From positions 1-56,032 of the forward strand of contig VGIW01000011.1 in the NCBI GenBank assembly GCA_016867715.1: a DNA stretch of 56,032 bases, given 5' to 3'. Shown here piece by piece: positions 6,604 to 44,106 of this stretch. Numbering within the stretch: the first letter of the stretch is position 1; the number at the start of each line of letters is the position of its first letter. Under the pieces are notes generated by a model that did not search any database, was not told where the DNA came from, and worked only from the letters and a program-made list of their open reading frames with translations. Both the position numbers and the translations under genes were made by a program. Origin of the DNA: Candidatus Eisenbacteria bacterium (GTDB taxonomy: Bacteria; Orphanbacterota; Orphanbacteria; Orphanbacterales; Orphanbacteraceae).

Positions 6604-9600
6604 TTGACGGGCAACCATCGGTCCTTCTCTTTGTCTTTCTTCCTCTCTCTTTTCTCTTTCCTCTCCTCTCTCTCCTTCCCCTCGTCTCTCGCCGCGGCTT
6701 CGTTCGTCCCGCCGGCGGGCGTTCATCGGGGGGGGGGGCGGTCCTCGATCGGAGCGGCTCCTTCCGAGTCTTTCTCGTCCGTCCGAGCTTTGCGTGTGAA
6801 GGAAGAGGTCGAGGGGACCTATCGGCTTCTCGCGATTCTCATCGAGTTCTCGCCGGACGACGATCCGACGACGACGGGGAACGGCACCTTCGGCGACGTG
6901 ATGGACGCGAACGAGGCGGTGTACGGCGACAGCTTCCCCGAGCTCTTCGACATCCCGCGCGACGCCGCGTACTTCCGCGAGCAGCTCCGCTACCTCGCGC
7001 AGTATTACGAAGCCGTTTCCAAGGGAAAGCTCCGGATCGAGGCGACGGTCCCCGACACGATCTTCACCGCGCCGGAGATGATGGCGTACTACGGAGACAA
7101 CGAAGAGACCTCGCGCCGGCAGTCCGCTCTTCTCCGCGACGCGGTTCTGCGCGCCGACCCGCTCGTCGACTTCTCCGCGTACGACGGCCTCTTCGTTTTC
7201 CACGCGGGGGCGGGGGAGGAGACCGACGTTCTCGGCGATTCCCCCGGCGACATCTGGACGGTCTATCTCGCGCTCCCTGATCTCGCCGCCGCCCTCGCGG
7301 ACTCGGGGATGGAGGATCGCTTCCGCGGCATCCCGACCGATGATCGGACGGGAACGGGAGACACGTTCTTCGTGGCCGAGGGGGTGATCCTCCCCGAGAG
7401 CGAGACGCAGGACTCCTTCGGGGGGAGGCCTCTCGCGCAATGGACTCTCGGCGTCGCGGCGCACATGATGGGGAGGCTTCTCGGAGCCCCGTCCCTCTTC
7501 GACACCGATGCGGACGACGGAACGTCGTCGCAGGGGATCGGCGGTTTCGGGATCATGGGGACCGGGCTCTGGAACTCGGGGGGGATTCTTCCCCCGCACC
7601 CATGCGCGTGGACGAAGGTCTTTTTCGGATGGGAGGAACCGCTTCTCGTCGAACGGGACACGACGATCGCTCTCCCTCTCGTCGCGCGCGCGGATCCGCG
7701 CCCGAAGATCTTGAGGATCCCGATCCACGAGGACGAGTACTGGCTCGTCGAGAACCGCTACAAGGACGAGAACGGAAACGGCCGGTTCGACTTCGACGAC
7801 AAGAACGGCGACGGGATTCTCTACCCGTTCGAGGATTCCTACGAGGGGGCGGAGTTCGATTGGTCGATCCCGGCGGAAGGGTCGATCGAGGGATCGGGGA
7901 TTTTCATCTGGCATATTGACGAGGCGAAGATTCGCGAGTCGGGGGATTTTCGCTCGAGGAACGCCGTGAACGCCGATCCGGATCGGAAGGGGGTGGATCT
8001 GGAAGAGGCGGACGGCATTCGGGATCTCGACCGGCGGGCGACTTCGCTCGAGGGTTTCGGATCTCCGGCCGACTCGTGGCGCGCCGGGAACCGGACCCGC
8101 TTTGGGCCGGACACCGATCCCTCGACGAGCACTGCCTACGGCGCCCGCACGGGGATCACGATCGAGGTCGAGAGCCCGGCGGAGAGCGTGATGACCCTCT
8201 CGGTCGCGTTCCGCGAACGGCCGCGGGGGTGGCCGGTGCGCGCCTCCGGCGTCCGCGTGGTCGGTCCGGTGATCCCGGTGAGGAGCGCGCGGGAGGGGAT
8301 CCTTGGGTTCGCTTTCGCGTACTTGGACACGGCGAGCGGGGCGAGCTTCGGGAACATCCTCGGCCTCGACGGAAAGCCGCTCGACGGATGGCCGGCGGAG
8401 CTTCCGGGCGGAGTCTCGTTCGCTCCGTCCGCGTTCTCGGCGGCGGCCGACGGACCGATCGCCCTTTACTTCCCGATGGTCAATGGCTCGATTGTTCGGA
8501 TGAAAATGAACGGAGTGATCGATCCGTCCGGCGCGTGGGGGGACTCGATCGCGGGAGCCGATGGGCAGTTCCTCTCCTCGGCGGCGCCCGAGGGCTCGCT
8601 CGTCTCGCTCGTCCTCCGGGGCGGGGAGACGACCGTGTTCGCGCTCGATCCGGCCGGAACCGCACGCGACTCGATCGCGCGCCTCGAGGGACGGGCCGTC
8701 GGCCCGGCGGCGCTCGGGTCGGGGATTTGGGCCGCCACCGACGCGGGGAAGCTCATGCGGGTCGAGGCGGGAGGCGTCCCGCAAGAGATCGAGACGGAGG
8801 GGACTCCCTCTCCGCCGATCCTTCTCCGGCATCATCTGAGGCCCGGTCCCACGGCCGGCGAGAACGCGCTCGTCGAAAAGGCGGCGGTCGCATCCGGACG
8901 CTCGCTTATCCTAAGCCCGTCGGGGCTTCCGGGCGGAGACCTTGTCGCGGCCGACCTCGGAGCGACGGCAGTCGGGATCCTCGCCGCCGCCGACATCGAT
9001 CGGGACGGGTTTCCGGAGATCCTCGCGGGGAGCGGCGACGGAAAGCTTCATGTGCGAAACGTGACCGGCGCCCCCTCGGCCGGATGGCCGCTCCGCGCGG
9101 GACACGGACCGAAGAGCGACCCGGGCGATCCTCCGATCGGGTCGCCGGCGGCGGGCGATCTCGACGGGGACGGGACGATCGAGATTGTTTTCGCGACGGA
9201 ACACGGGAGCATCGGCGTCGCGGACGCGGAGGGCCGGATGCTCCCGGGCTTCCCGGTCGCGGCGGCGGGAAGGAGTCCCTTCGGGGTCGCGATGACGGCG
9301 TCCCTCGATGAGGAGACAACGTATGTTCTCGTCGCGACGGAAAGGGGCACCTTCGATCTCCTCGTCTTCGGCTCCTCGGCCGGGCGGATCGAGTGGAGCG
9401 GGTACGCGAACGGCGCGGGGCTCGCGGGGCTCTACCGCTCCTCTCCCTTCGAGCCGAGAGGAGGGGAGGGTCTCTTCGTCGACAAGGAGACCTTCTGCTA
9501 CCCAAACCCGGTCGGGCCGGGGGGGATCGCGCGGATCCACTATCGCCTCCGAGAGGAGGCGGAGATCGGCGCGCGGGTCTACGGGATCGACGGTTCGCTC

Positions 9601-9789
9601 GTCGAGGAGTTTCCGCCGTCGCTCGTTCCCGCGGAGACGGGGGAGTTCGTGTGGGACACGCGCTCCGTGGGGAGCGGGGTCTACGTCGCGAGGCTCGAGG
9701 CGCGCCTTCGGGGAGGAGGGGCCGGGCCGCGGAACCCTTCGGCGCCGCGCGAGGAGGTCAAGTTCGTCCCGATCGCGGTCGCCCGCTGA
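6604..9789 (+). CDS. Secreted M6-peptidase-like protein lacking the catalytic motif, with propeller-like repeats and FlgD-like sorting domain
   Basis: A 1061-residue exported protein. Residues ~1-32 form a signal peptide. Residues ~70-540 resemble M6 (immune inhibitor A-like) peptidases, with VFHAGAGEE, FGIMGTGLWN, LVENRY and IFIWHIDE in family order. At the position of the zinc motif HExxHxxGxxxLYD the protein has HMMGRLLGAPSLFD (H287, M288, R291), so the catalytic glutamate and second histidine are gone. Residues ~720-930 carry FG-GAP/VCBS-like D-x-DxDG calcium-type repeats (DIDRDG, DLDGDG). The last ~80 residues, from CYPNPV to the end, match the FlgD-like Ig/Por-type C-terminal sorting domain. 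The TTG start at 6604 follows GGGGAGGG and gives the complete signal peptide. A PorV-like gene follows. Confidence 0.85.
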   Translation: MTGNHRSFSLSFFLSLFSFLSSLSFPSSLAAASFVPPAGVHRGGGRSSIGAAPSESFSSVRALRVKEEVEGTYRLLAILIEFSPDDDPTTTGNGTFGDVMDANEAVYGDSFPELFDIPRDAAYFREQLRYLAQYYEAVSKGKLRIEATVPDTIFTAPEMMAYYGDNEETSRRQSALLRDAVLRADPLVDFSAYDGLFVFHAGAGEETDVLGDSPGDIWTVYLALPDLAAALADSGMEDRFRGIPTDDRTGTGDTFFVAEGVILPESETQDSFGGRPLAQWTLGVAAHMMGRLLGAPSLFDTDADDGTSSQGIGGFGIMGTGLWNSGGILPPHPCAWTKVFFGWEEPLLVERDTTIALPLVARADPRPKILRIPIHEDEYWLVENRYKDENGNGRFDFDDKNGDGILYPFEDSYEGAEFDWSIPAEGSIEGSGIFIWHIDEAKIRESGDFRSRNAVNADPDRKGVDLEEADGIRDLDRRATSLEGFGSPADSWRAGNRTRFGPDTDPSTSTAYGARTGITIEVESPAESVMTLSVAFRERPRGWPVRASGVRVVGPVIPVRSAREGILGFAFAYLDTASGASFGNILGLDGKPLDGWPAELPGGVSFAPSAFSAAADGPIALYFPMVNGSIVRMKMNGVIDPSGAWGDSIAGADGQFLSSAAPEGSLVSLVLRGGETTVFALDPAGTARDSIARLEGRAVGPAALGSGIWAATDAGKLMRVEAGGVPQEIETEGTPSPPILLRHHLRPGPTAGENALVEKAAVASGRSLILSPSGLPGGDLVAADLGATAVGILAAADIDRDGFPEILAGSGDGKLHVRNVTGAPSAGWPLRAGHGPKSDPGDPPIGSPAAGDLDGDGTIEIVFATEHGSIGVADAEGRMLPGFPVAAAGRSPFGVAMTASLDEETTYVLVATERGTFDLLVFGSSAGRIEWSGYANGAGLAGLYRSSPFEPRGGEGLFVDKETFCYPNPVGPGGIARIHYRLREEAEIGARVYGIDGSLVEEFPPSLVPAETGEFVWDTRSVGSGVYVARLEARLRGGGAGPRNPSAPREEVKFVPIAVAR

Positions 9790-9907: not shown

Positions 9908-10813
9908 ATGAAACGCTTCTTGTTTGTTTCGGCCGCCGCCCTGTGCGCGGCGGGCTCCGCTGGCTCCGCGCCGGTCGGGCTCCGCTCGATGCTTGTCGAT
10001 CCGGGGGTCGCCGCTTCCGGAATGGGATACGCGTACACGGCGGTCGCCGATGACGCGAGCGCGCTCTATTGGAACCCGGCGGGGCTCGTGCTCGGCGCCG
10101 AAGGGTACGATCTTCTTCTCGCGCACACCGAGTGGTTCGTCGAGCATCGGATGGAGTATGCGGTCGTCGCCTGGAATCGGGGCGCCGATGCGCTTGCCGC
10201 GGGGATCAGCGGGCTCTACGTCGGCGGGATCGAGCGGCGGGACGAGAATCCGACGCTGGAACCTCTCGGCGACTTCGGCGCGTACGACATCGTTGTTTCT
10301 CTCGCCTATGCGCGGGCATGGGGTCCGCTTCGGGCCGGTCTCGCCGCGAAGCCGTTCTACTCGAAGATCGACCGGGTGAGCGCGCACGGCGTGGCGGCGG
10401 ATCTCGGCCTTCAGGCGGACACGCCGATCGAGAACCTCACGATCGGCGGGGCGATCGCGAACTTTGGGAACGAGCCCTATTATGTGGAAGAGAGGTTCTC
10501 GCTCCCGCTCGATCTTCGAGGCGGCGCCGCCTATCGGATTCCGCTTCCCGCGGAGTCGGGCGAGCTTCTCGTTTCCGCGGAGGTTCGAAAGTCGAGGGAC
10601 GACGACGCGCGCACGCATTTCGGCGGGGATCTCCGCCTCGCGAGCGGGATCTCGCTCCGCTTCGGCTACAAATGGGGCTACGAGGAAGAAGACTACGCGT
10701 TCGGCATCGGGATCGCGCGCGGGTTCTACTCGATCCAGTACGCTCTGGTCCCCTTCCAGTCCGATTTCGGGAACGTCCATCGCTTCGCGCTCGGCCTGCA
10801 CAGGGACAAGTAG
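9908..10813 (+). CDS. PorV/PorQ-type outer-membrane protein
   Basis: A 301-residue protein with a signal peptide (cleavage near residue 20). It starts its mature part with the PorV/UPF0164 signature, in which an early Gly-Met-Gly-Tyr-Ala-x-Thr-Ala-Val-Ala-Asp-Asp stretch is followed by ALYWNPAGL. The rest alternates short beta strands with turns, as in a FadL-like barrel. PorV-type proteins help export or anchor proteins that carry type IX-like C-terminal domains, and the gene just upstream ends in such a domain. The ATG at 9908 has GGAG eight bases upstream. Function in secretion is inferred from family and context. Confidence 0.8.
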   Translation: MKRFLFVSAAALCAAGSAGSAPVGLRSMLVDPGVAASGMGYAYTAVADDASALYWNPAGLVLGAEGYDLLLAHTEWFVEHRMEYAVVAWNRGADALAAGISGLYVGGIERRDENPTLEPLGDFGAYDIVVSLAYARAWGPLRAGLAAKPFYSKIDRVSAHGVAADLGLQADTPIENLTIGGAIANFGNEPYYVEERFSLPLDLRGGAAYRIPLPAESGELLVSAEVRKSRDDDARTHFGGDLRLASGISLRFGYKWGYEEEDYAFGIGIARGFYSIQYALVPFQSDFGNVHRFALGLHRDK

Positions 10814-27121: not shown

Positions 27122-27264
27122 GAAACCAGATCCGCCGACCGCCCGAGTGTCTTCTTCGCGAGATGTCTTCCCCTGGAGATCGCGGGAAGGGGATCGCTCG
27201 ACCGCCCGCCGGCTCGCCGTGGGCGCCGAGCCGGCGGCGAGGAATCGCAAAGGGGGCGAAGGGT

Positions 27265-28416
27265 ATGAAAGGAGCGATGGTTCTCTTCGCGCTTGGGATC
27301 CTCGTGGTCCCCGCGACGGGCGCATCCGCGCGCACCTGGTACATCCTGCCGGATGGCTCCGGAGATGCTCCGACCATCCAAGCGGGGATTGACTCTGCAA
27401 CCGTCGGAGATACCGTTCTTGTCGGGTGCGGGATCTACTATGAGTACAACGTCCGCATGAAGTCCGGAGTCTGCCTCCGGAGCGAGACGGGAGATCCCGA
27501 CTGTGCGACCATCGATGCGCAGAGTCTCGGCAGAGTACTGAATTGTCGCAACATCCAAGTAGACGCTCGCATTGAAGGGCTCACGTTGACCGGGGGTTAT
27601 TGTGAGGGGAACGCGGGTGGCATCTACTGTGTCGAGGTTTGTCGCGTGTCGATCGTGAACTGTATGATCAGAGACAATCGTGCCGGATGGGGTGGGGGCA
27701 TCGGCATTGGTGGGCACTCCTCTCCGACGATCCGGGACTGCGAGATCTACCGCAACACTGCTTTCTATCCCTATGAGTATGCCGGATCAGGGGGAGGTGT
27801 GTACATGGGGAGCACATCGGGCGCAGTGCTTGCTCGTTGCACAGTCTACGGGAATAGTGCCGTGATCGGGGGAGGGGTTGGGTGTGACATGTACGGAGCT
27901 CCGTTGATCACGGATTGCGTGATTACCGGCAACACGGCCTCCGCAAGAGGTGGTGGGATCGGATGCGAAATCTACTCGAGCCCGACCTTTGTGAGCTGCA
28001 CGGTCGCCGGGAACTTTTCAGCCAGGGGAGGGGGGATCGATTTCTACGGGAGCTACGCAACGCTGGAACGCTCGATTGTTTGGGGAAACTGCGCGGGGCT
28101 GTTCGGGGATGAGATTCGATTGTGGGGAACGGGGACATCAGTCTCGGTGAGTTGTTCTGCCGTGGATACTTCAGGAATCGTTGGAGATAGTTTGATCTCT
28201 TGGGGAGTGGGGAATGTATTCGAGGATCCCCTCTTTTGCGGCCCAGAGAACTGCGAGAGCGCGCCGACGACTTTGGGCGACTACACGCTGTCCAGTACGT
28301 CTCCCTGCCTGAATGCTCCCGGCTGTGGTCAGATCGGCGCGCTGGGGCTTGGCTGTTCCGGTCCGACGCGAACCGAGGAGACCTCCTGGGGCACGATCAA
28401 GAGGCTCTTTCGATAG
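27265..28416 (+). CDS. Secreted right-handed beta-helix protein with SWG-type C-terminal tail
   Basis: A 383-residue exported protein with a signal peptide (~1-20, ending GASA). The body is a Gly/Cys-rich right-handed parallel beta-helix: repeats such as GGGIGIGGHSSPTIRDCEI and RGGGIGCEIYSSPTFVSCTV resemble pectate-lyase-like or Chlamydia-PMP repeats. It ends TRTEETSWGTIKRLFR, a tail shared with the secreted protein at 43555-44106. Third codon positions are richer in A/T than in neighbouring genes. ATG 27265 is preceded by GGGGGCGAAGGG; an ATG at 27277 with AAGGAG is an alternative. Substrate or surface role unknown. Confidence 0.8.
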   Translation: MKGAMVLFALGILVVPATGASARTWYILPDGSGDAPTIQAGIDSATVGDTVLVGCGIYYEYNVRMKSGVCLRSETGDPDCATIDAQSLGRVLNCRNIQVDARIEGLTLTGGYCEGNAGGIYCVEVCRVSIVNCMIRDNRAGWGGGIGIGGHSSPTIRDCEIYRNTAFYPYEYAGSGGGVYMGSTSGAVLARCTVYGNSAVIGGGVGCDMYGAPLITDCVITGNTASARGGGIGCEIYSSPTFVSCTVAGNFSARGGGIDFYGSYATLERSIVWGNCAGLFGDEIRLWGTGTSVSVSCSAVDTSGIVGDSLISWGVGNVFEDPLFCGPENCESAPTTLGDYTLSSTSPCLNAPGCGQIGALGLGCSGPTRTEETSWGTIKRLFR

Positions 28417-43554: not shown

Positions 43555-44106
43555 ATGTCGTCGAGGAAGATGTGCGTAGTTGTCATCGGGCTCGTCCTGC
43601 TTTCCGCCGTGAGCGCTCGCGCACAGTACACCGTGGAACTGGACTTGGACGACCACCTCGGCAACGGCCCGGACACCGTGTGCGTCGAGGTCGGCGAGGA
43701 TGTCTGGGCGGACGTTTGGATTCACGGGCCCGAGGCTCTGTGGCACTTTGGCGTATGGCTGTGCAACCTGGACAGATGTCTTCAGTTCCGCGGATGGTAT
43801 TGCAATCTCCCGCCAAGCTGGACCATCGTTCCCCCGCCCCCATGGGGCGAATGCGAACTGGTCCAAGGAGTGGATCTCACGATACCGCCGCAGCCGATCT
43901 CCCTTCCTTGGATGGTCTGCAGGGTCCGTTATCTCGCCGCGGTGGACCAGTGCATCGCGGATCTCACGATTGGTGCTGGTTCCGGGGTGGGGATCGTCGG
44001 TGGCGAGACCGTCTACTTCAACAGTTGGGTCGACGCAGCGGTGCGGATCGGGGCCACCTCAGTCGAGGAATCGTCGTGGGGGGCGATCAAGAGTCTCTTT
44101 CGGTGA
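43555..44106 (+). CDS. Small cysteine-rich secreted protein with SWG-type C-terminal tail
   Basis: A 183-residue exported protein. Signal peptide ~1-23 (ending SARA). The mature part is a single beta-rich domain with seven cysteines (D-TVCVEVGEDVWADVWIHG, then WHFGVWLCNLD) that looks like an Ig/cohesin-type fold, but I cannot name a family. It ends TSVEESSWGAIKSLFR, nearly the same tail as the beta-helix protein at 27265-28416. Codon use is less GC-rich than in neighbouring genes. ATG 43555 follows GGAGGAGGAAG. Confidence 0.75.
   Translation: MSSRKMCVVVIGLVLLSAVSARAQYTVELDLDDHLGNGPDTVCVEVGEDVWADVWIHGPEALWHFGVWLCNLDRCLQFRGWYCNLPPSWTIVPPPPWGECELVQGVDLTIPPQPISLPWMVCRVRYLAAVDQCIADLTIGAGSGVGIVGGETVYFNSWVDAAVRIGATSVEESSWGAIKSLFR

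Follow-up and report, generated by a model that had tools for sequence, protein, structure and literature searches.

Two secreted proteins of the window end in the same tail

The stretch of DNA analyzed here, referred to as the window, is 56,032 nucleotides long. It encodes a secreted right-handed beta-helix protein with a signal peptide (27277..28416, +; Pfam Beta_helix, E value 1e-14), the start of which is uncertain and may lie at 27163, 27265 or 27277, and a small secreted protein (43555..44106, +) that was recognized as a single cohesin fold from its AlphaFold model and Foldseek. Translation of the window showed that the beta-helix reading frame (27163..28416, +) ends in GPTRTEETSWGTIKRLFR and the small secreted protein in IGATSVEESSWGAIKSLFR, each followed directly by a stop codon. 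The two tails, TRTEETSWGTIKRLFR (28366..28413, +; stop codon 28414-28416) and TSVEESSWGAIKSLFR (44056..44103, +; stop codon 44104-44106), lie at the very ends of their proteins, as the initial annotation had observed, and a direct count gives 11 identities over the last 16 residues where ten had been reported. The span 28369-28416 previously assigned to the tail holds 15 residues plus the stop codon, and the 16 residues that were quoted begin at 28366. Our census of the tail rests on DNA patterns; the pattern TGGGSNNNNRTNAARNNNHTNTWYMGNTRR, which codes for W-[GA]-x-[VIM]-K-x-[LMIF]-[FY]-R-stop, matched twice in the window versus zero times in 100 shuffles.

The AlphaFold model of the beta-helix protein (mean pLDDT 87.5) places tail residues 371-378 in a loose helix with pLDDT below 50, and that of the second protein (pLDDT 84.5) has a tail helix at residues 175-181 with pLDDT of 55-59. 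In both models the tail is a loose short helix of low confidence, detached from the passenger, and as modeled it does not belong to a folded domain. The model of the protein at 43555-44106 resembles cohesins (Foldseek, best E value 1.9e-7), and a single cohesin-fold protein is by this structure comparison a better description of it than the "small cysteine-rich protein" of the initial annotation. The tail was present in 23 of the 23 members found of its family.

A different kind of C-terminus is found on a third secreted protein of the window, which is M6-like (6604..9789, +; NF052323, E value 1.6e-103) and whose C-terminus, when read, proved to be a FlgD-like domain of the type IX secretion system (T9SS) and not the tail. 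Directly 3' of this T9SS-type cargo gene is a gene for an outer membrane protein of the PorV/PorQ family (9908..10813, +; NF033709, 129.9 bits, cut-off 90), a possible candidate for the shuttle of the 6604-9789 cargo.

Sequence and position of the tail

The tail has the consensus E-x-x-[ST]-W-G-x-[VI]-K-x-[LM]-[FY]-R-COOH, which an alignment of 188 tails extends to [TV]-[AP]-[TV]-E-x-[TSA]-[ST]-W-G-x-[VI]-K-x-[LM]-[FY]-R, with the conservation at positions that were used in the search pattern being inflated by that pattern. Columns upstream of about position -19 carry little information in the 188 tails, and no Pfam or NCBIfam model covers the tail, which is thus not the end of a larger known domain. 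Fifteen variant tails were found through homology of the protein bodies, with the motif scored afterwards. Among these the lysine was kept in 15 of 15, the tryptophan in 14, the glycine in 13 and the phenylalanine or tyrosine in all 15, while the last arginine was present in only nine and replaced by lysine in four. The codons vary at wobble positions and the protein sequence is kept, indicating that selection acts on the peptide.

The motif shows a strong association with the stop codon. In the seven genomes of the source phylum there were 169 matches with an immediate stop versus 190 when the stop was not required, using two patterns that differ slightly (S versus G at the fifth base). Among motifs lacking an immediate stop, almost all of those read lie 1-4 residues before the end of the protein; three are internal, including one in a duplicated lipoprotein gene. 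Three tandem paralogues in the source genome (L205, G000:C13:18500-25000) have tails extended by 3-4 residues (KVL, RVFR and DLF). A 1029-residue frame of another kind of protein (L214, G005:C13) carries a tail-like motif in its middle, APEEGNWGNVKGLFR followed by a glycine-rich stretch.

The hydrophobic residues of the tail (W, V/I, L/M and F) share one helical face, and the hydrophobic moment peaks near 110 degrees, although the moment calculated for a strand is similar to that for an amphipathic helix.

Distribution of the tail

The source genome contains 31 exact matches to the DNA pattern versus none to a reversed control, from which it follows that the two tails of the window belong to a large set and are not among a few isolated hits. 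All seven genomes of the source phylum contain the tail, with 8-37 matches each and no control matches, as do 75 of 80 genomes of the Krumholzibacteria phylum, with 537 matches in total and again none to the control. Several tail-rich genomes have 30-58 matches each. The tail is found in many genomes labelled Eisenbacteria, and there are a few matches in Fermentibacteria and in Latescibacterota, where some occur by chance. Matches of the WAFIK.LYR type in Latescibacterota were set aside, apparently representing one conserved DNA stretch and not the tail. We also scanned 84,980 species with a pattern that required the E; among the matches listed were metagenome-assembled genomes labelled Eisenbacteria, Krumholzibacteriia, Latescibacterota, Fermentibacteraceae or Aegiribacteria, as well as unlabelled or probably mislabelled bins.

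Two tail-coding loci of the source genome (L001, G000:C1:32437, and L025, G000:C106:8778) have no convincing in-frame start or signal peptide and are probably frameshifted or broken genes; in the L001 region, the protein of a relative matches over the tail only.

Proteins that carry the tail

Judged by sequence, the tailed proteins are secreted and not cytoplasmic: a signal-peptide-like N-terminus was recognized in 155 of the 160 tailed proteins that are complete, compared with about a quarter of neighboring genes. These values come from a hydrophobicity rule and not from SignalP, and 155 of 160 is an upper estimate because the start codons of tailed proteins were picked partly by the same rule. 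When starts were chosen without it, in a set that includes genes cut at contig ends, the proportions were 81% versus 23%.

The main domains vary, as the initial annotation had predicted. Among 110 non-redundant tailed proteins we found beta-helix, LTD, CHRD, DUF5123, lectin C-type, PPC, DUF642 and DUF7901 domains, to which the cohesin fold can be added. Most of the 110 had no matched domain; 15 families were matched, none of them a family of C-terminal domains (CTDs). At least four tailed proteins have a lipobox, and the lipoproteins noted were L087, L090, L103, L206 and L211. L206, from the source genome, has one extra residue after the tail.

Comparison with known C-terminal signals

The tail was compared with NCBIfam and Pfam and no model there describes it, and eight tails and a consensus tail matched no family, CTERM models included. 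As a control, tails of the IPTL-CTERM and PEP-CTERM types, which are of similar length, matched their own models at 2e-12 and 2.7e-9. Six typical tail strings had no match in the literature searched, which covered few subscription papers, and nothing was found there on sorting signals in these phyla. The PEP-CTERM, IPTL-CTERM, MYXO-CTERM and LPXTG tails resemble this one in being short, strictly terminal and present on varied secreted proteins, but they have a hydrophobic transmembrane stretch and a basic cluster, and the tail has neither. Its identity with the LPXTG or PEP-CTERM types was therefore rejected, in agreement with the initial annotation, which had also distinguished it from the T9SS CTD.

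The comparison with the type A CTD of the T9SS (TIGR04183, PF18962, and here the FlgD-like PF13860) is closer. Both are C-terminal on proteins with signal peptides, on the same passengers and in the same genomes, and both have a lysine near the end, a basic last residue and a tolerance of short extensions. The local CTDs end, like the tail, in a basic residue, hydrophobic residues and then [KR]; however, the lysine of the tail is at position -5 versus -6 in the local CTDs. The type A CTD has an Ig-like fold of roughly 70-100 residues with motifs B, D and E, whereas the tail has about 16 residues and lacks these. Neither tailed protein of the window matched TIGR04183, PF18962 or PF13860 at its C-terminus, and the C-terminal 70-100 residues contain no Ig-like beta-sandwich, AlphaFold giving the detached loose helix instead. 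With neither the models nor the Ig-like fold present, we rejected the identification of the tail as a type A CTD; it may nevertheless work like one.

Other T9SS signals were also considered. The shortest reported are the short CTDs of Prevotella intermedia, of about 40-55 residues and three strands (PMC11969387). Like the tail they are a shortened signal that occurs beside long CTDs in one organism, but they keep motifs B, D and E (PMC11969387), and the tail is without the B and D motifs. The type B and type C CTDs are, like the tail, alternative C-terminal signals, but have about 100 residues or more and a sequence unlike it (PMC12618676, PMC10202324); type B CTDs are read by their own shuttle proteins (PMC12618676). 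In the T9SS the final CTD residues are required, as is a lysine close to the C-terminus, and for HBP35 the last 22 residues are enough (PMC11285876, PMC10994853, PMC11969387), which makes a minimal signal without an Ig-like fold thinkable.

Type IX secretion in tailed genomes

The source genome encodes SprA, PorU and PorV, the genes for the latter two being adjacent and PorV lying at L202:17621-18595, and has 121 FlgD_ig matches. SprA was found in all seven genomes of the phylum, and PorU was above the cut-off in all seven. In a set of 41 other tailed genomes, a few entries of which repeat genomes of the phylum, SprA was found in 35 with one model and in a further three as fragments with a longer model (38 of 41); it was also present in each of 17 further tailed genomes, a complete chromosome among them. 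SprA was not found in the tailed genomes G013, G019 and G022, at least one of which is a small partial bin. There is a partial PorU match in G022, G013 has weak matches to the PorU model and to CTDs, and the bin G019 is possibly mixed. Like T9SS cargo, the tailed proteins have a signal peptide (by the hydrophobicity rule), SprA in nearly all of their genomes and a conserved lysine.

Five genomes of the Krumholzibacteria phylum that lack the tail (G051, G053, G081, G093 and G110) also contain SprA, and SprA alone is thus not sufficient to explain the tail. The initial annotation had proposed a dedicated export or attachment system as the reader, and co-occurrence with one envelope gene family as a check. 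The tail does nearly always co-occur with the T9SS (SprA and PorU), but this companion is a known system that is not specific to tailed genomes. Of the earlier interpretation the recurring terminal tag is supported; a dedicated reader may exist.

FlgD_ig was the commonest Pfam domain in the immediate neighbors of tailed genes, at 16 of 123 versus a background of 4-6% that is approximate, and secreted genes cluster in any case. Across the 25 commonest families, genes with T9SS-type CTDs were the only recurrent partners above background. The cluster of PorV-like proteins held three loci, one being that of the window (9908-10813).

The tail and the CTD alternate on the same passengers

The clearest clue to an exchange of C-termini is on contig C17 of the source genome, where two adjacent beta-helix paralogues agree in their first turns and in how the helix ends (...GAFG.GC), but one carries a TIGR04183 CTD (31.3 bits, cut-off 23) and the other only the tail. 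The same pair of beta-helix proteins, one with CTD and one with tail, occurs in the relative DeMMO4_6 (L084), and for an unrelated passenger, DUF7901, two proteins that are 43% identical end one in the CTD and the other in the tail (L109). A CTD-bearing homologue was found for 32 of 185 tailed bodies, nearly all of them beta-helix proteins, and tail and CTD were never found in one protein (0 of 48 CTD proteins). The alternating type A domain has about 85 residues. This replacement of a T9SS domain by the tail on similar secreted proteins suggests that the tail is probably an undescribed address label of the cell envelope.

Two beta-helix proteins (L125:1301-2404 and L134:1218-2426) terminate close to where the helix ends and carry no tail and no CTD; they are possibly truncated or represent a third state.

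Discussion

A terminal, conserved peptide that is independent of the protein body and alternates with a known outer membrane export signal is most simply explained as a sorting signal, and we hold it very likely that the tail is one and does not form part of a domain. The possibility that it forms the terminus of some larger conserved domain, or is a mobile DNA element by which genes are terminated, draws on two internal copies (L087 and L211) that resemble gene fusions or duplications, but the uninformative columns before about -19, the model scans and the wobble variation in the main refute it, leaving it only the slightest probability.

How such a signal would be read is less certain. The best explanation, on which our judgement is evenly balanced, is that it acts on Sec-exported proteins and is read by the T9SS in place of the Ig-like CTD. 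By this mechanism the signal peptide would take the protein across the inner membrane, leaving the 16 or so C-terminal residues to extend from the folded domain as a flexible linker followed by an amphipathic helix of two turns, a low-confidence prediction, which would present the tryptophan, lysine and aromatic residue that conservation shows to be near-invariant. In the periplasm an outer membrane receptor, most likely SprA with a PorV-family shuttle, would recognize the tail as if it were a pared-down version of the Ig-like type A CTD, and the protein would then reach the cell surface or be retained there; export and anchoring are indistinguishable from sequence.

Against reading by the T9SS are the missing Ig-like fold and B and D motifs, a length below that of the shortest reported T9SS signals, the differing register of the lysine, the three tailed genomes without SprA and the tailed lipoproteins, which are awkward cargo for SprA. 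The lipoproteins and the tail-less T9SS genomes point to a further receptor or to a different route. We consider it unlikely, on balance, that the tail is a docking peptide with an undescribed receptor of its own, for example an outer membrane or scaffold protein, which would work independently of the T9SS, the CTD sending a passenger to one destination and the tail to another. The near-invariant W, K and F/Y do imply a specific binding partner and the structure of the tail is unlike any T9SS signal, but no recurrent non-T9SS family stands beside tailed genes among the 25 commonest families, and the T9SS is nearly always present. Still less probable is a nonspecific anchor, in which the amphipathic helix with its flanking K and R would settle on the outer membrane or lipopolysaccharide. 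The shared hydrophobic face and the loose helix modeled by AlphaFold are in keeping with this, and an anchor on single cohesin modules would be sensible; such an anchor should however tolerate swaps, yet the variants kept K in 15 and W in 14 of 15, and the lipoproteins are already anchored.

Returning to the tail as a sorting signal, it appears somewhat more probable than not that it represents a new class of C-terminal export or attachment signal, either a fourth T9SS kind acting as a helix of about 16 residues in place of a folded domain or the tag of a separate outer membrane sorting system, which would span the Eisenbacteria, the Krumholzibacteria and their relatives. If the T9SS reads the tail, its signal does not have to be a folded Ig-like domain, and a 16-residue tag would allow recognition by the translocon to be tested directly. 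Should the T9SS not be the reader, a second outer membrane sorting system awaits discovery. Hundreds of hypothetical proteins would, by a simple pattern, join the predicted surface and secreted set of several uncultured phyla.
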